In this document: piece after piece, positions 7,277 through 54,384 of the stretch
Numbering within the stretch: the first letter of the stretch is position 1
Layout of the letters: the number at the start of each line of letters is the position of its first letter
Assembly (NCBI RefSeq): GCF_900104625.1
Contig: NZ_FNVZ01000005.1
Location: 682,001-746,000, forward strand
Source: Leptotrichia massiliensis
GTDB taxonomy: Bacteria > Fusobacteriota > Fusobacteriia > Fusobacteriales > Leptotrichiaceae
Direction: 5' to 3'
DNA length: 64,000 bases
Made by a program: the position numbers and the translations under genes
The notes under the pieces: model-generated
The model's database searches: none
Told to the model about the DNA's origin: nothing
What the model saw: the letters and a program-made list of their open reading frames with translations, nothing else

Positions 7277-7574
7277 GCAGGATTGCTCATTGCGGCAAAT
7301 CCTTATCTTGCATTAAAAGTTTATCCTGTTAATTAAAATTGTGGCAAGATTGCTACGCAATACCTATGGCTAGACTACGACTTTTATTTACCCAACTCCG
7401 AAACTCCTCCTTACAGTCGTCAAACAGTCGTAGTTGAACAAATAAAAGCTCCGTCGATTTATTAAAGAAATAATTATATTTTAATTATTACTCCTTTATT
7501 TATTGTAAAAGTTTGTAATAAAGAATATAAACCTTTATTGCAAGATAAGGTTTTGCGGCAATGAGCAATCCTAC
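7277..7574. repeat. Non-coding element bounded by 35-bp inverted repeats
   Basis: The left arm (7277-7311) and right arm (7540-7574) are inverted copies with three mismatches over 35 bp; both contain GATTGCTCATTG. The interior holds CTATGGCTAGACTACGAC (7364-7381), found inverted at 9005-9021, and CAGTCGT repeats. No convincing ORF lies inside. The 470 bases between the ~108-bp repeat and the GNAT gene hold only this element and AT-rich sequence. Confidence 0.7.
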
Positions 7575-8313: not shown

Positions 8314-8837
8314 TGAAAACTCCATCAGTTTATTAAAATTTAAAAATTAGATTTAATTTTTATAATTATTTAAGTAAAAGAAAAAGAGCAAGAATACATT
8401 CTCCTAAATGAGAATTCTCTGCCCTTCATATATAAATTCATCATTTCTTATTTTGTACCTTTGCAGTATACATTAGAATTCCCTATTTCCGTATCTATCC
8501 TCACAGAATACATTTCCATATTGATTCCTATAACATTTTCTTCCTCTTTCAGCTGCTTCTCTCTTAGCCTCATTGTATTCATCTATAATACTACAGCTGA
8601 ACAATGTCATAGCCAATATAACCAGCATAATAATCTTTTTCATAAATATTCATCTCCTTTTATATTGTTCTTATCTAAGTCGAATATGTATTTCATTTTT
8701 TGTATTAATTACTTGTGTTCTTTTTATATTTTAATTATACAATATTTCAATCTAAAATGCAATTTTTTTATATTTCTTCCAAAAATTTAATAAAAAATAA
8801 AATTATACCTGATACTAAATCCTATTTAAATAACGAA
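8314..8837 (-). repeat. Duplicated ~520-bp block, copy 2
   Basis: Direct copy of 6601-7121 including the tiny lipoprotein gene and its hairpin terminator. It ends with the opening of the ~108-bp repeat (8821-8837), so the two blocks seem to have been a joined unit. Confidence 0.85.
8473..8643 (-). CDS. Tiny lipoprotein (56 aa), intact copy
   Basis: Begins MKKIIMLVILAMTLFSC, a short signal peptide with a lipobox-like LFSC, so Cys17 would be lipidated. The mature part is about 40 residues, highly charged, with Cys37 and Cys47 that could form a disulphide. An AAGGAG site lies about 10 bases upstream of the ATG. Paralogues sit at 6757-6927 (start lost) and 31700-31858. All three share the same hairpin and T run about 40-70 bases after the stop. 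Function unknown; an outer-surface or periplasmic small lipoprotein is inferred. Confidence 0.75.
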   Translation of the reverse strand: MKKIIMLVILAMTLFSCSIIDEYNEAKREAAERGRKCYRNQYGNVFCEDRYGNREF

Positions 8838-38109: not shown

Positions 38110-39138
38110 TCAATTTATTTTTTCAATTTCTTTTCTCATCTTTTCAATGTTGGTATGTGTATATCTCTTAGTCATACTTATGTTTGTATGCCCTATTATT
38201 CCAGTTATTGCACTCTCGTTATCTGACACATCGCTTATCATTGTAGCGAAGGTATGCCTGGTATCGTGTATTGTGTGTGATATATCCAGCTTTTCCATTA
38301 TTTTCAGAAATTCATTTTTTCTAAAATTGTTATAATTGTAGAAACTTTTTTCAGTTCTATTTGGAATCAGGTATTCTGTCTTGTTTTCCATTCTTTTAAT
38401 TATGAGTGGGAGTATTTTTGGATGTATTGGTATTACACGATTTTTTCCAGCTTCAGTTTTACTTCCGCCAATGATTATATTTTGCTCTAAATCTACGTTT
38501 GTTTTTTGAAGTTTTAGAAGTTCGTTTATTCGCATACCTGTATAAATCAGAATTAAAATTACGTCAGCATATTCTAATTCAATAATGTTTTCCCACAGTA
38601 AAGCAATTTCTTCGCTAGTAAAAACCTTTCTTTCTATTTTTGGTTTATGTTTAGGCAATTTTATAAACTGGCTGTAGTCCTTGACGATTATATCCATCTC
38701 CATTGCATTTTTGAAAAGTATTCCTATGAAAGATTTTAAATTTTTTAAAGTTCCACTTGATAAATGGGAGAGATTATCTATAAAATTTTGAAGTTCTATA
38801 GTTCTTATATCTTTTATTTTTTTGTTGTATAAAGGCTTTAAATAATTGCACCACACTTTATAAGACTTCAGACTTGATTTTTCAATTGAGTTTTTTTTAC
38901 TTTCCATTATTCTGTCTAGAATTTCTTTAAGTGTGACATCACTCAAGTTAATATTATACGGATTATCATTATAGTCTGCAAGGGCCTTTATCGCTTTGGC
39001 CTGTGTTTCATAGTACCCTAATACTTTCATTATCTGTCTGCCTTCCATATCAAAACCTGTTGTAATGCGTACTATAAAAGGTTTTCTTCTTTTCCCAGAA
39101 AGTTTTGATACACTTCCATATCCATTTGGATTTTTCAT
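38110..39138 (-). CDS. Prophage integrase (tyrosine recombinase)
   Basis: A 342-aa site-specific recombinase. It has an N-terminal arm-binding region (GYGSVSKLSGKRRKPFIVRI), a SAM-like core-binding domain (about 65-165) and a catalytic domain with Arg in YTGMRINELL, Lys in GSKTEAGK, HDTRHTFAT, IGHTNISMT and the nucleophile Tyr in KRYTHTN. All catalytic residues are present. It points outward toward the chromosomal junction. AAGGAGTG precedes the ATG. It marks the prophage's left end. Confidence 0.95.
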   Translation of the reverse strand: MKNPNGYGSVSKLSGKRRKPFIVRITTGFDMEGRQIMKVLGYYETQAKAIKALADYNDNPYNINLSDVTLKEILDRIMESKKNSIEKSSLKSYKVWCNYLKPLYNKKIKDIRTIELQNFIDNLSHLSSGTLKNLKSFIGILFKNAMEMDIIVKDYSQFIKLPKHKPKIERKVFTSEEIALLWENIIELEYADVILILIYTGMRINELLKLQKTNVDLEQNIIIGGSKTEAGKNRVIPIHPKILPLIIKRMENKTEYLIPNRTEKSFYNYNNFRKNEFLKIMEKLDISHTIHDTRHTFATMISDVSDNESAITGIIGHTNISMTKRYTHTNIEKMRKEIEKIN

Positions 39139-39220: not shown

Positions 39221-39252
39221 TAGTCCCTATTGCCGTAGGGGCTATTTTTTTT
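39221..39252 (+). terminator. Hairpin with T8 tail, plus strand
   Basis: TAGTCCCTA / TAGGGGCTA around TTGCCG, followed by T8. It would stop rightward transcription entering from the int side; no plus-strand gene precedes it. Confidence 0.7.
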
Positions 39253-39291
39253 ATTCCTTCTAAAATTTTAGTTCTTAATCTCATTTTTACG

Positions 39292-39311
39292 AATCCTATT
39301 GCCGTAGGATT
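39292..39311. repeat. Second hairpin with the same TTGCCG loop
   Basis: AATCCTA/TAGGATT perfect stem around TTGCCG, sharing CCTATTGCCGTAGG with the hairpin 70 bases to the left. It overlaps the methyltransferase stop codon by two bases and has no T tract on the minus side. Confidence 0.6.
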
Positions 39312-40047
39312 ATTTTAACCTTAAATTGCCTAATTTAGAATATTCTGCACTTTTTTCAATCCCAATATAGTTCCTGTTTAGTCGTTTACATACTCTTCCT
39401 AATGAAAATGAACCTGCAAATAAATCTAATACAACACTACTCTCATTTGAACTAACTTTTACAATACGTTCTAATAAAATTTCAGGTTTTTGAGAAGGAT
39501 GTTCTACATATTCTTCCATTTTGAATCTCACTCTTGGAAAATGCCAAACATTTCCTGGAACTTTTTTATCATTATACGGAGCAGGTGGACTTTTTCTATA
39601 GTCAATTAATTTTCTTTTTGCTCCTGTTTTAGTTTCAACTAAAATATCTTGATAATTAAATGTATATTTATTTTTATTTTTTACTGCAAAGATTATTGGT
39701 TCATAAAGAGAACCAAAATGCTTTTTTGCTTGTACACCTGAACTATCATACTCCCATATAATTCTTGATTTTATATGCAGTCGTTCTCTTATGAAGATAT
39801 CAAAATATGCATAAAATTGTGTTGAGCACATAAAATACAGAGAGCCGTCTTTCTTTAACTTATTTATACCCAATTCTAACCACTGATAACACCAGTCTAA
39901 ATAATCTTTTTCTGTATTCCAGAAATCAGAAGTTCCTTTATATTTTTTATTCAAATTATAAGGAGGATCTATAAAGATTAAATCTATTGTGTTATCTTCT
40001 ATTGTATTTAAAGCCTCGATAATATCTGAATTTATTATTTTTATCAT
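39310..40047 (-). CDS. Beta-class DNA methyltransferase of a DUF262-HEPN unit
   Basis: 245 aa. Catalytic motif IV DPPY is near the N-terminus (27-30) and SAM motif I LDLFAGSFSLG near the C-terminus (about 208-218): the beta-class order. HPSQKPEILLERI precedes motif I as in other beta enzymes. DPPY favours N6-adenine, though N4-cytosine is possible. Motif I has FAGSFS instead of the common FAGSGT. It is the third gene of a co-oriented set, 31 bp after the HEPN gene. It may protect self DNA or modify phage DNA; the recognition sequence is unknown. Confidence 0.88.
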   Translation of the reverse strand: MIKIINSDIIEALNTIEDNTIDLIFIDPPYNLNKKYKGTSDFWNTEKDYLDWCYQWLELGINKLKKDGSLYFMCSTQFYAYFDIFIRERLHIKSRIIWEYDSSGVQAKKHFGSLYEPIIFAVKNKNKYTFNYQDILVETKTGAKRKLIDYRKSPPAPYNDKKVPGNVWHFPRVRFKMEEYVEHPSQKPEILLERIVKVSSNESSVVLDLFAGSFSLGRVCKRLNRNYIGIEKSAEYSKLGNLRLK

Positions 40048-40078
40048 AAAATTTCACCTCAAATTATTATATCATAAT

Positions 40079-40759
40079 TTAAGCATTATGCATAGACGCT
40101 AAATACTCTCTATTAACTATATTTTTTTCTATAAAACTATGAAAATTTTCCATTTCTCCAATTATTAAATTTTTCATAATCTCAATATCTAAAATATCAG
40201 AATAGGTATTTTCTTTAGCTTTCAAGCCAGTGTGTGCTATCGAATTTCTATTATGCACTAATTTTTCCAAATTTGTTTCAAATACATTAGTTTCATCTAT
40301 CAAGCTATAATTTAAGATGGTACAAATATTCTTATAATTTTTAAATTTTAAATTGCTTTCACTTCCTACTGTATATTTTTCAAAATATTCGTCAATTTTT
40401 ATTTTGAATTTAGAACCTTTTGAAACCAGATCAAGTATCTTTTTTTCTTGAAAAATATTCTTGTCAACTTTATATGTTTTTAAAAGACTTTTTAAATATA
40501 TTAATAAAAAATTTTCAGTAAGTTTAGATAAAACCAGTTTCTGAGATATAATGAATGAAAAATATTTTATTGTGTATTCTTTTATGAATCCTTCCCAATG
40601 TGCATATAATAGTAGTATGAAGGATTTATTTAATATTTCCGCAATTCCCGAACTTTGACAACCCTGAATGTACATATAAAAGTCTGTTATTTCTTTTTTT
40701 CTGTTACTCAGAGCAGTAGTTAATTCAAATATTAATTTCTCATCAGGTCTACTTTTCAT
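40079..40759 (-). CDS. HEPN-domain protein (MAE_28990/MAE_18760-like), predicted RNase
   Basis: A 226-aa all-helical protein. Near residue 171 is LVHNRNSIAHTG, with Arg171 and His176 in the HEPN RxxxxH ribonuclease motif. Upstream, LLYAHWEGFIKEY (about 51-63) is the conserved N-terminal HEPN helix of the MAE_28990/MAE_18760 group. HEPN proteins with this motif typically cut RNA in toxin-antitoxin and abortive-infection systems. Its ATG overlaps the DUF262 stop (TAATG), so the two are translationally coupled and probably act together. RNA cleavage is inferred. Confidence 0.85.
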   Translation of the reverse strand: MKSRPDEKLIFELTTALSNRKKEITDFYMYIQGCQSSGIAEILNKSFILLLYAHWEGFIKEYTIKYFSFIISQKLVLSKLTENFLLIYLKSLLKTYKVDKNIFQEKKILDLVSKGSKFKIKIDEYFEKYTVGSESNLKFKNYKNICTILNYSLIDETNVFETNLEKLVHNRNSIAHTGLKAKENTYSDILDIEIMKNLIIGEMENFHSFIEKNIVNREYLASMHNA

Positions 40760-41829
40760 TATATGTTTCTCCCTATTTCAATACCGCTGATAAATTGATC
40801 TACTACGTTTGACCCTCTATTTGCTTTTTTCTTATATCGTTCGTCATTCTGGATTCTGTTTATTACTTCTGGTAAATTTATATTTTCACTAATATGCTTA
40901 TGCATAAATGAAATTACACAAATGTATAAAAAAGGTGAAAATTTCCTTCCGTTTGCAAAAGGTTTTATAGGTACTTGCCTGTGTATGATTTCAAATAAGT
41001 TCATTATGCTTTGTATATCTTTTATTGCTTTACCATTCTTTAAAACTTCTGTTATGCATAAATCTATAAACCTATCACGTGACGAGTAGTTATTTTTAGC
41101 TATACTTTTAAATATTTCTATTCCTTTTTTACCTTCAAAATCAATATCATTATTTATTATAATTGATGCATAAATTAACAGCTCACTTCTATAGTCTTCT
41201 GAATTCTGTTTAGGACTAATGGTTAAAACATGTTCGCATAAATTAGTATCTTTAAAAGCTTTAATTTCTTCATAAAATTTATTATCTAATTTTGAAATTA
41301 AAAAATTTCTGATTTCTTGTGCAGATAAAGTAATTCCACCCGTATTAAGTCTATTAAAAAGAGTGTATTCAGATTCTATATTTTCAGATACGAATAAATT
41401 AACATCAATTCTTCTCATGTCAAAAAATTTGAATACAGAACTCGAATATTTCTTTTTTAATTCGCTGTATGTTTTATCGTTTAATTCTTTAAGAATTTCT
41501 AAATTTTTTAACGTTAAAGGTTTTTTATTTTCTAGATTTCCGTAGAACCAAAGAATACTAGATATTCTTTGAACGCCATCTATTACTTCCCAATTTCCGT
41601 TTCGGACTGATACAAAAATAGGTGGAAGTGGTACTCCTAACATTATAGATTCAATCAGCTTACTAGCTTGTTCTTCAGTCCATCTAAATAATCTTTGGTA
41701 AACAGGTGTTAAATTAATCTCTGAGTTTTGATGCATGGTTATTAGTTCTCTTAAACTCATTGAATATTTATCCTGAATATATTTATTTGAATTTGCATTC
41801 AAATATTCACTAAATTTTCTCTCGTCCAT
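40759..41829 (-). CDS. DUF262-domain protein (ParB/GmrS-like)
   Basis: 356 aa. The DUF262 fold shows LTPVYQRLFRWTEEQASKLI (about 41-60), LGVPLPPIFV and WEVIDGVQRISSILWF, where DGVQR (84-88) is the DGQQR-type motif tied to NTP binding or hydrolysis in GmrSD-like and SspE-like proteins. The C-terminal half is helical, with no HNH (DUF1524) nuclease, unlike GmrD or SspE fusions. It is the first gene of the DUF262-HEPN-methyltransferase set. A sensor or activator role for the HEPN partner is inferred. Confidence 0.88.
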   Translation of the reverse strand: MDERKFSEYLNANSNKYIQDKYSMSLRELITMHQNSEINLTPVYQRLFRWTEEQASKLIESIMLGVPLPPIFVSVRNGNWEVIDGVQRISSILWFYGNLENKKPLTLKNLEILKELNDKTYSELKKKYSSSVFKFFDMRRIDVNLFVSENIESEYTLFNRLNTGGITLSAQEIRNFLISKLDNKFYEEIKAFKDTNLCEHVLTISPKQNSEDYRSELLIYASIIINNDIDFEGKKGIEIFKSIAKNNYSSRDRFIDLCITEVLKNGKAIKDIQSIMNLFEIIHRQVPIKPFANGRKFSPFLYICVISFMHKHISENINLPEVINRIQNDERYKKKANRGSNVVDQFISGIEIGRNI

Positions 41830-43603: not shown

Positions 43604-44019
43604 TTATAAATATTTTTCTAATTCTTTTAATAACTTTTTATCTAACTCTGTTAAATCAAGTTTATAAATATCCTTATTGTTAAATATTAAAGTTGCAGCA
43701 AATTCGTTTGCTTCTTGTTCAACTTGGCTTGTTTCGGACAGAAGTTTTTCACTTTCATAAATATAGATACAGCTTCATTAAATGATTGCTGTCCGTGTCC
43801 TAATTCGTGGCTACATACTATTCGTTTGGATAAGTAGGGAAGTTTGATGTTGATGAAAATTGTTTTTTCATTTCCAATACAGGTGTATAGGCCTAGCCAA
43901 GATGAAAAATCGGAATAGATAATTTTTATTCCTTGATGTTCTGCAATTTTAAAAGGATTATCAGTTCCATATTTTTTTATTAAAGTTTTTGCCAACTTTT
44001 TAAAATTTGTTTTGTGCAT
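43604..44019 (-). pseudogene. immA: ImmA/IrrE-type metallopeptidase, frameshifted
   Basis: The start at 44019 gives a peptidase with the zinc motif CSHELGHGQQ. The frame then changes at the A5 run (43745-43749 on the plus strand). Reading one base back restores LLSETSQVEQEANEFAATLI, the normal ImmA continuation with its third zinc ligand, and runs to a TAA at 43604-43606. Without the shift the protein ends LLQL at 43687. ImmA proteases cleave the phage repressor on induction. A GAAAAAC -1 slip site could rescue it, but mutation is simpler. Confidence 0.8.
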
Positions 44020-44025
44020 AAAATC

Positions 44026-44475
44026 CTATTTTTTGTTCTCTCTCTGTTTTATTAATATGTCTATTACAGCACGTTTGAATACAGCCATATCATGTTCATC
44101 ATCAACATCATTGAAAAATAGTTGCTTATTTACTCCAGTAACTTTTTCAAATTCTGCAAGTTCTTCTGGAGTTAAGACTGATGTGTCTACAAAATACGGA
44201 TCTATTTGAACATTATTGTTTAAATTATTTTCCCAACCCATAATATATCCAGGAGTTGTTTTGTAAATTTTTGCTAATTTTTCAATATTCCCCATTGGAA
44301 TATTTGTTATATCAGTATTTTCATATCTTGATAACGTAACTTTGGATATATTTAATTTTTGAGCAACTTCTTCTAAACTAAGATTATTTTTTAGTCTCAA
44401 ATTTTTTAATTCTTCTGCTCTTTTAATTTCTTTATCAGTTGGTTTTATTTTTTTTCGTGATTTAGAAATTTCCAT
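44026..44475 (-). CDS. CI-like phage repressor (XRE family)
   Basis: 149 aa. The N-terminal HTH (about 20-80) shows LKNLRLKNNLSLEEVAQKLN, then ISKVTLSRYEN and KLAKIYKTTPGYIMG. The C-terminal part (about 85-149) is a dimerisation or ImmA-recognition region with no LexA-type Ser/Lys protease. It sits directly before the ImmA gene, the arrangement of ImmR-ImmA switches. It should bind the divergent promoter region and hold the lytic genes off. Confidence 0.88.
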   Translation of the reverse strand: MEISKSRKKIKPTDKEIKRAEELKNLRLKNNLSLEEVAQKLNISKVTLSRYENTDITNIPMGNIEKLAKIYKTTPGYIMGWENNLNNNVQIDPYFVDTSVLTPEELAEFEKVTGVNKQLFFNDVDDEHDMAVFKRAVIDILIKQRENKK

Positions 44476-53355: not shown

Positions 53356-54384
53356 ATGACAAATGATGAAATTTTTGAATTTAAAGAAATGCTTTTTAAA
53401 AGATTTAACAATGAAGATGTGAGATTTATAGAATTTAAACTTCTTGAAGTTTTAAAGAAGAGGGAAAATGCACTTGTAAAAGTGGATAGAAATTCTGACG
53501 AAAACTTGCTTAGAATGTTTTTGATGACAAAAAAATCAGAAAATTTATCAGACAAAACATTAATATATTATAGAGCAACCCTAATTACTTTTGCAAAAGC
53601 AGTTAATAAAAATTTTGTGGAAATTACAGATAATGATATTAAAATGTATTTAGCAAAAAAACAATTCGAGCATAAAGTAAGCCCAGTTACTGTTAATAAT
53701 ATCAGAAGAATTATAAGCAGCTTTTATTCTTGGATGCAGGAACAGGAAATTTTACTGAGAAACCCTTCAAAGAAAGTAAAAAAGGTAAAAGAGCCTGTAA
53801 AAAGAAAAAAAGCTATAGATGACATTGATATAGAAGTAATGAGAAATGCAATAATGAAATCAGGAAATGATAAAACTAGATACGGTAAGATTAATTCTAA
53901 AAGAAATAGGGCAATATTTGAATTATTACTTTCAAGCGGTATAAGAATAGGTGGACTTGTAAATCTGAAAACGAGTGATGTAGATTTAGAAAATAGAAGT
54001 GCTGTAACATTTGAAAAAGGTAATAAGGAAAGAATGATTTATTTCGATGCTGCCACTGAACTAGCACTAAGAGAATATTTAGAAGTAAGGCAAATGACAG
54101 AGAAAAGCGGAGAAAAATTATTTTTAAGTTCAATGCACCCGTATAAACCGTTGGAAATTTCTGGAGTAGAAATTTTGATAAGAGAATTAGGAAGAAGTTT
54201 AGGGATAAAAAAAATACATCCTCACCGATTCAGACGAACATTTGCAACAATAGCATCAAAACGTGGAATGGCAATAGAAGATATTCAAAGGTTAATGGGG
54301 CATAAAAAGATAGAAACAACACAAATTTATATTGATTCTGATGAAGAAAGTGCAAAAAATGCTTACAGAAAGGTGATGGGATAA
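53356..54384 (+). CDS. Second tyrosine recombinase (XerC/D-like), internal to the prophage
   Basis: 342 aa: core-binding domain LSDKTLIYYRATLITFAKAV to about 150, then the catalytic domain with Arg in SSGIRIGGL (Glu of RxxEL replaced by Gly), HPHRFRRTFAT, LMGHKKIETTQIYI and a late Tyr. All catalytic residues are present. It lies in the replication module, 15 kb from the integrase at the prophage end. It may resolve multimers or invert a segment. Confidence 0.85.
   Translation: MTNDEIFEFKEMLFKRFNNEDVRFIEFKLLEVLKKRENALVKVDRNSDENLLRMFLMTKKSENLSDKTLIYYRATLITFAKAVNKNFVEITDNDIKMYLAKKQFEHKVSPVTVNNIRRIISSFYSWMQEQEILLRNPSKKVKKVKEPVKRKKAIDDIDIEVMRNAIMKSGNDKTRYGKINSKRNRAIFELLLSSGIRIGGLVNLKTSDVDLENRSAVTFEKGNKERMIYFDAATELALREYLEVRQMTEKSGEKLFLSSMHPYKPLEISGVEILIRELGRSLGIKKIHPHRFRRTFATIASKRGMAIEDIQRLMGHKKIETTQIYIDSDEESAKNAYRKVMG

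Follow-up and report, generated by a model that had tools for sequence, protein, structure and literature searches.

The stretch analysed here, 64,000 nucleotides of the Leptotrichia massiliensis contig NZ_FNVZ01000005.1 (positions 682,001 to 746,000 of the forward strand; hereafter the window), carries within a prophage three adjacent genes encoding a DUF262 protein, a HEPN protein and a DNA methyltransferase (MTase). The DUF262-HEPN pair is a widespread two-gene core, and the pair of the window belongs to one clade of such pairs in which an MTase is regularly found alongside, the MTase family being swapped inside the clade. A defence role of the pair is very probable. In our view, chances are about even that the three genes together form a cassette directed against phage and expressed from the lysogen, in which a HEPN ribonuclease would be gated by methylation in the manner of a restriction-modification (R-M) system. 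The genes are the following (aa, amino acids):

40759 to 41829, minus strand: DUF262 gene (GmrSD_N / ParB-Srx fold), 356 aa, DGVQR at residues 84-88, Pfam GmrSD_N.
40079 to 40759, minus strand: HEPN gene (RiboL-PSP / MAE_28990 class), 226 aa, R171-N-S-I-A-H176, two Pfam HEPN models.
39310 to 40047, minus strand: YhdJ-type MTase gene, 245 aa, DPPY at residues 27-30, NF008572.

The DUF262 stop and the HEPN start share one nucleotide (TAATG), and 31 base pairs (bp) separate the HEPN stop from the MTase start. The preliminary description of this DNA, made from the letters alone, had reported three packed minus-strand genes with these spacings; its coordinates are exact to the base and its residue numbers (DGVQR 84-88, RNSIAH 171-176, DPPY 27-30) are right. 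The search with hidden Markov models that it had proposed matched GmrSD_N, HEPN (RiboL-PSP and MAE_28990) and N6_N4_Mtase. The same gene order is seen again in two other prophages, and because it recurs at HEPN identities of 42-60%, the trio is far beyond chance. Compared with the trios of L174/L006 and L008, identity to the window is 53 and 46% for DUF262, 60 and 42% for HEPN, and 71 and 65% for the MTase, with HEPN-MTase gaps of 30 bp in L174 and 60 bp in L008. The L174 prophage reads repressor, DUF262, HEPN, YhdJ-type MTase, integrase. The limits of the unit are given by L211, a sister prophage from the same genus:

39250 to 41829, no strand: cargo cassette (by blastn, homology to L211, the related prophage, ends at 39249 and begins again at 41828).

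The slot between integrase and repressor is filled exactly by the three genes, 41828 corresponding to the DUF262 start. Since similarity to L211 breaks exactly outside them, we consider the trio as a single cassette, carried as cargo in a defence slot; the earlier proposal of a single unit is borne out by a precise cassette that recurs in three prophages.

To place the pair, a HEPN profile was run over a set of genomes with one representative of each species, and over viral contigs and plasmid and phage records. A DUF262 gene lies directly upstream, on the same strand, in 110 of the 111 distinct HEPN loci, L070 being the sole one without a detected DUF262 neighbour. A seven-sequence profile was required, because the HEPN protein used alone as query had found no match in viral contigs or phage records. 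The pair is also plasmid-borne (E. coli IncX1 plasmids, Corynebacterium and Psychrobacter plasmids), and the HEPN is rare in Fusobacteriota (3 to 4 of 98 genomes). Within the same genus, L175 (4803-7965) carries an Eco57I MTase, a DUF262 gene broken by a stop and an intact HEPN gene, between glyQ and glyS.

A tree built from 100 concatenated pairs of DUF262 and HEPN shows the METHYLTRANSFERASE to be clade-specific. One clade of 33 rows (support 96 in the SH-like approximate likelihood ratio test, SH-aLRT) shows an adjacent MTase or R-M system in 30, versus about 2 of the 67 rows outside, where only L004 is labelled MTase-linked and a DUF1156 protein occurs near L099. On the tree, 4 changes of the MTase label are needed against 26.7 after shuffling, and none of 500 shuffles was as low; the 30 of 33 count as one phylogenetic association, not as 30 independent events. 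When the longest branches were dropped and a mixture model was used, 19-20 rows still formed a clade made up wholly of MTase-linked members, and of the 32 clade rows left in the tree 29 grouped together at 88. As the first MTase search had used queries derived from the clade, a blind Pfam search was carried out on the immediate neighbours. Among 53 clade neighbour proteins, it counted N6_Mtase 19 times, Eco57I 16 times, N6_N4_Mtase 3 times and the BsuBI/PstI restriction endonuclease (REase) 12-13 times; among 113 neighbours outside, no MTase family matched two or more proteins, although single matches are possible beyond the 25 families listed. The tree and the blind tally rule out that the N6 and PstI MTase neighbours are there by chance. 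The tie between MTase and DUF262-HEPN, as proposed in the preliminary description, holds as a statistical linkage for the window's clade of pairs.

Both family and position of the MTase vary in this clade. It is of the Eco57I/PstI type and upstream in Bacteroidota and cyanobacteria, of the N6 type and on the opposite strand in phage contigs, and of the YhdJ type and downstream in the three trios, which form a clade of their own (100) nested among Eco57I/PstI rows. Such swaps are as expected of a sensor/effector pair that depends on having an MTase, whichever its family.

The DUF262 protein matches Pfam GmrSD_N (PF03235, 2.4e-28) over residues 32-175. Pfam detected no DUF1524/HNH domain in its 356 aa, in agreement with the initial reading of a DUF262 protein devoid of a fused HNH nuclease. 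Residues D84, G85, Q87 and R88 are invariant across 78 homologues. Its AlphaFold model (mean predicted local distance difference test, pLDDT, 90.1) resembles BrxU, the ParB-N domain and SspE, with probabilities up to 0.99 and E-values of 0.003 and above, PDB entry 7p9k being the best fold match. Among PADLOC models, it matches PD-T4-2_A (1.3e-25) and, better, NsnA (4.2e-42), a name that we could not trace in the open-licence literature. These features predict an NTP (nucleoside triphosphate)-dependent sensor or switch. The same genome encodes a second, longer DUF262 protein (581-aa open frame; G000:C2:72353-73042), probably a GmrSD-type enzyme.

In the HEPN protein, two overlapping Pfam models are matched, HEPN_RiboL-PSP (PF18735, 8.1e-22) and HEPN_MAE_28990 (2e-21). 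All 80 aligned HEPNs keep R171 and H176, and the RxxxxH motif is intact, as had been noticed at first sight; R20, Y52, H54, E56, G57 and N136 are invariant as well. The AlphaFold model has a mean pLDDT of 90.7, and a sequence search of the PDB retrieved no HEPN relative. We predict a ribonuclease effector on the basis of these residues and families.

The MTase, which had been called a beta-class DPPY enzyme, shows indeed the beta order of motifs, DPPY (27-30) preceding motif I (DLFAGS, at 208). It matches Pfam N6_N4_Mtase (3.3e-53) and is a YhdJ equivalog by NCBIfam NF008572 (3.8e-113; 377.5 bits for a curated cut-off of 292). E. coli YhdJ methylates ATGCA*T (PMC9239280). The window MTase is 53% identical to it over the core, including the presumed recognition region, and this identity together with a promoter site leads us to predict ATGCA*T as its target. 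This site is:

40066 to 40093, minus strand: ATGCAT (40088-40093)-N16-TATAAT (40066-40071), the predicted MTase target at the -35 of a putative MTase promoter.

ATGCAT here occupies the -35 position relative to a perfect -10 box, and the same arrangement stands at the same place in L114/L008. In 621 kb of related sequence there are only two copies of the whole string, each directly 5′ of the MTase gene and 20-40 bp upstream of its start, in two diverged trios (the window, and L114 at 6625). This suggests a feedback of methylation on MTase expression through the promoter ATGCAT. Such a feedback would not be general, as the search upstream of MTases of the other types gave neither CTGCAG nor ATGCAT sites.

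The host has few ATGCAT sites: 160 kb contain 26, where the dinucleotide composition predicts 69, though a fourth-order estimate gives 33. Six of the 14 sites of the window lie in the 2.5-kb cassette (39807, 40088, 40900, 41054, 41166 and 41731), where shuffles predict 0.76 (P about 1e-4), and the rest of the window has 8 versus 23.5 expected. Enrichment is not significant in two relative cassettes (2 versus 0.51 and 1 versus 0.43 expected), and for this reason we do not use it as evidence on mechanism.

The MTase could also be independent of its neighbours. In that case, a PD-T4-2-like pair would sense some phage feature alone, and the MTase would be a separate anti-restriction gene against hosts that cut ATGCAT, merely sharing the slot. 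Most DUF262-HEPN loci are indeed two-gene, and PD-T4-2 works without MTase (PMC10952713). In the same genus, YhdJ-type MTases (L156 and L157) that are 56-57% identical to that of the window pair with a type II REase (PADLOC 1.4e-82); with such ATGCAT-type R-M systems around, and ATGCAT being scarce, an anti-restriction MTase would pay. On the other hand, the linkage is confined to one clade and nearly universal there, while the MTase families and positions differ. An anti-restriction gene standing on its own would not track the phylogeny of the DUF262-HEPN pairs, and we therefore regard this explanation as unlikely, although it is the best placed of the alternatives.

Functional coupling to methylation is supported by the phylogeny and by the promoter site. 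In the mechanism we propose, the DUF262 protein, with its BrxU/SspE/ParB fold, would be an NTP-dependent sensor of DNA state, hydrolysing NTP on DNA. The YhdJ-type MTase would mark ATGCA*T on host and prophage DNA and so keep the sensor off in the lysogen. Incoming unmarked DNA, or a failure of methylation, would fire it: on unmarked ATGCAT, DUF262 would activate the HEPN protein, a putative dimer-type ribonuclease, which would shut down the infected cell. The MTase itself probably limits its own expression via the ATGCAT of its promoter. In effect, an RNase gated by a sensor would take the place of the restriction enzyme in a restriction-modification system. Somewhat more tentatively, and at rather less than even chances, we suggest for the clade as a whole an RNase-armed, R-M-like system whose DUF262 reads the mark of its own MTase, perhaps a TGC-m6A core, and thereby gates HEPN, with the MTase under methyl-feedback and its family exchanged from one lineage to another. 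The PstI-type site is CTGCAG, and a conserved reader of the TGCA core common to ATGCA*T (YhdJ) and PstI-type sites is conceivable. If this is true, DNA methylation would gate RNA-cutting shutdown too in bacteria and prophages, and not only DNA-cutting enzymes, and restriction-modification and abortive infection would be joined in three genes.

Several observations weigh against a methylation-gated cassette. The core can work alone, since an MTase is missing from two thirds of the DUF262-HEPN loci, and three clade loci without an adjacent MTase still keep the HEPN R-x4-H. The third trio (L174) has no promoter ATGCAT. Against PDB folds the HEPN model gave nothing significant, HepT matching weakly, and the protein matches no PADLOC model. 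Moreover, the characterised DUF262 defence proteins (GmrSD, BrxU and SspE) respond to modified DNA (PMC10952713).

This last point favours a reverse, SspE-like logic, where host DNA bearing the mark of the MTase would license or activate the sensor, HEPN then being triggered by phage events. All characterised DUF262 defence proteins behave in that direction, SspE acts alongside its own modification enzymes (PMC10952713), and the fold of the window DUF262 matches both BrxU and SspE. Yet DUF1524 and the modification-reading parts of SspE and GmrSD are absent from this protein. Furthermore, since the 56-57% identical MTases of the same genus pair with a type II REase, a YhdJ-type MTase commonly protects against its partner enzyme, as the gating of HEPN by unmarked DNA would have it. 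The reverse logic appears to us improbable.

The REases of the clade raise a further question, whether the pair arose as a suicide backup in PstI-type operons, guarding the R-M system in the manner of PrrC, the window trio having later lost its REase. BsuBI/PstI REases are present in 12-13 clade loci, some of which have DUF262-HEPN between the M and R genes, and HEPN proteins in R-M operons have been proposed as PrrC-like inhibited RNases (PMC3710099). However, three trio loci contain no REase at all and an MTase of another family, so that the unit is stable alone. The cassette has no cognate REase gene, and its own genome gave no match to the PstI family or to the ATGCAT REase of the genus, the latter search having no positive control. 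Such an origin seems quite improbable. In L049, L054 and L057, DUF262-HEPN has an Eco57I-type MTase on one side and a BsuBI/PstI REase on the other, so that the predicted RNase module lies inside an R-M operon of the PstI type.

The surroundings of the cassette are those of a prophage, with integrase, metalloprotease, CI-type repressor, replication protein and terminase nearby. Its flanking features are:

38110 to 39138, minus strand: tyrosine integrase flanking the cassette (Pfam PF00589, 3.3e-21; phrog_1).
39221 to 39244, plus strand: hairpin and T-run at the integrase-side cassette edge, terminator-like by consensus match only.
43687 to 44019, minus strand: IrrE/M78-type metalloprotease of the prophage immunity region (Pfam PF06114).
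44026 to 44475, minus strand: Cro/CI-type helix-turn-helix repressor-like protein (Pfam PF01381; phrog_8).

In the same slot, the sister prophage L211 has other open reading frames, one of which matches the PD-Lambda-1 and SoFic models. This region (L211:1975-4015) encodes a 165-aa protein in which a Fic N-terminal part is fused to a T5orf172 domain (PADLOC PD-Lambda-1 3e-41, SoFic 3e-10), and a second protein, of 294 aa, that belongs to no known family; the slot may hold further defence cargo. Independently of the window and L211, the Cetobacterium-type prophages L114 and L209 have repressor regions 94% identical up to the DUF262 start, are similar again past the cargo, and differ by whole DUF262-X-MTase blocks. 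One of them holds DUF262, HEPN and a YhdJ-type MTase, the other a different DUF262, a 209-aa R-x4-H (RTRVVH) protein and an Eco57I-type MTase. This 209-aa protein (L209:5137-5766) has no Pfam or PADLOC match and is possibly from an unrecognised HEPN family with the same role. Inverted repeats of about 54 bp flank repressor and cargo (L114:4030-4083 and 7467-7525; L209:3261-3314 and 8627-8678) and might drive cargo exchange or inversion. In the prophage region of the window, a second tyrosine integrase gene (53356-54384, plus strand) suggests a nested or tandem element.

Finally, the trio might be a toxin-antitoxin (TA) or addiction cassette whose role is to stabilise the prophage; DUF262 or the MTase would then be the antidote, and protection against phage would be incidental. 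This is very improbable. TA systems often have HEPN toxins (PMC3710099), and plasmid-borne relatives adjoin replication genes, but the same slot of the sister prophage holds the PD-Lambda-1/SoFic-like defence sequences, and in G071 the DUF262 gene is decayed by stops while HEPN and MTase are open. As HEPN is tolerated there without DUF262, this pattern fits DUF262 as an activator rather than an antitoxin.

The preliminary description knew of no characterised system with this trio, a statement that has to be corrected by two precedents. A two-gene DUF262+HEPN defence system, PD-T4-2 (Vassallo 2022), has been validated in E. coli (PMC10952713, PMC9519451): T4 plaquing rose when it was deleted from its native strain (PMC9519451), and its entry in a 2023 review includes both DUF262 and PF18735 HEPN (PMC10952713). 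The 2013 HEPN survey of Anantharaman lists, as a table entry, MAE_28990 operons with ParB nuclease and DNA methylase genes (PMC3710099). In the open-licence literature, we found no paper joining DUF262, HEPN, methyltransferase and anti-phage. The two-gene core is known, and the MTase-linked clade is a variant for which this literature gave us no experimental description.

Compared with these and other systems, the window shares with PD-T4-2 two adjacent genes, DUF262 and a RiboL-PSP HEPN, its own PF18735 protein being encoded directly downstream. It differs by belonging to the MTase-linked clade, whereas no MTase is reported for PD-T4-2, by its better match to NsnA and by a HEPN without PADLOC model. 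With the 2013 operons, it has in common all three gene types in one operon; these are only a gene-neighbourhood table entry, however, for which we know of no clade analysis, MTase swap, cassette boundaries or test. The DUF262 domain, including DG(V/Q)QR, and its fold are shared with GmrSD and BrxU, but the window protein lacks the DUF1524 HNH and its partner is a HEPN, not a DNase. In SspABCD-SspE, a DUF262 NTPase is likewise coupled to a DNA-modifying activity, which is phosphorothioation instead of YhdJ-type methylation, and the window has no DUF1524; no Ssp-like gene was seen among the open reading frames read around the cassette, SspABCD models not being part of the search. The L156 and L157 systems have an MTase 56-57% identical to that of the window, with the same predicted target, but their partner is a PADLOC type II REase and not DUF262-HEPN. 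The BsuBI/PstI R-M systems with embedded DUF262-HEPN (Bacteroidota, cyanobacteria and Psychrobacter) are of the same clade and also have an adjacent DNA m6A MTase; they differ by a true REase, an Eco57I/N6-type MTase and another gene order. MTase-linked clade and MTase-free relatives offer a natural comparison for what DUF262 sensors recognise (PD-T4-2, Menshen, Dazbog). What is new with respect to all these systems is the clade-specific MTase linkage, with MTase families swapped inside the clade.

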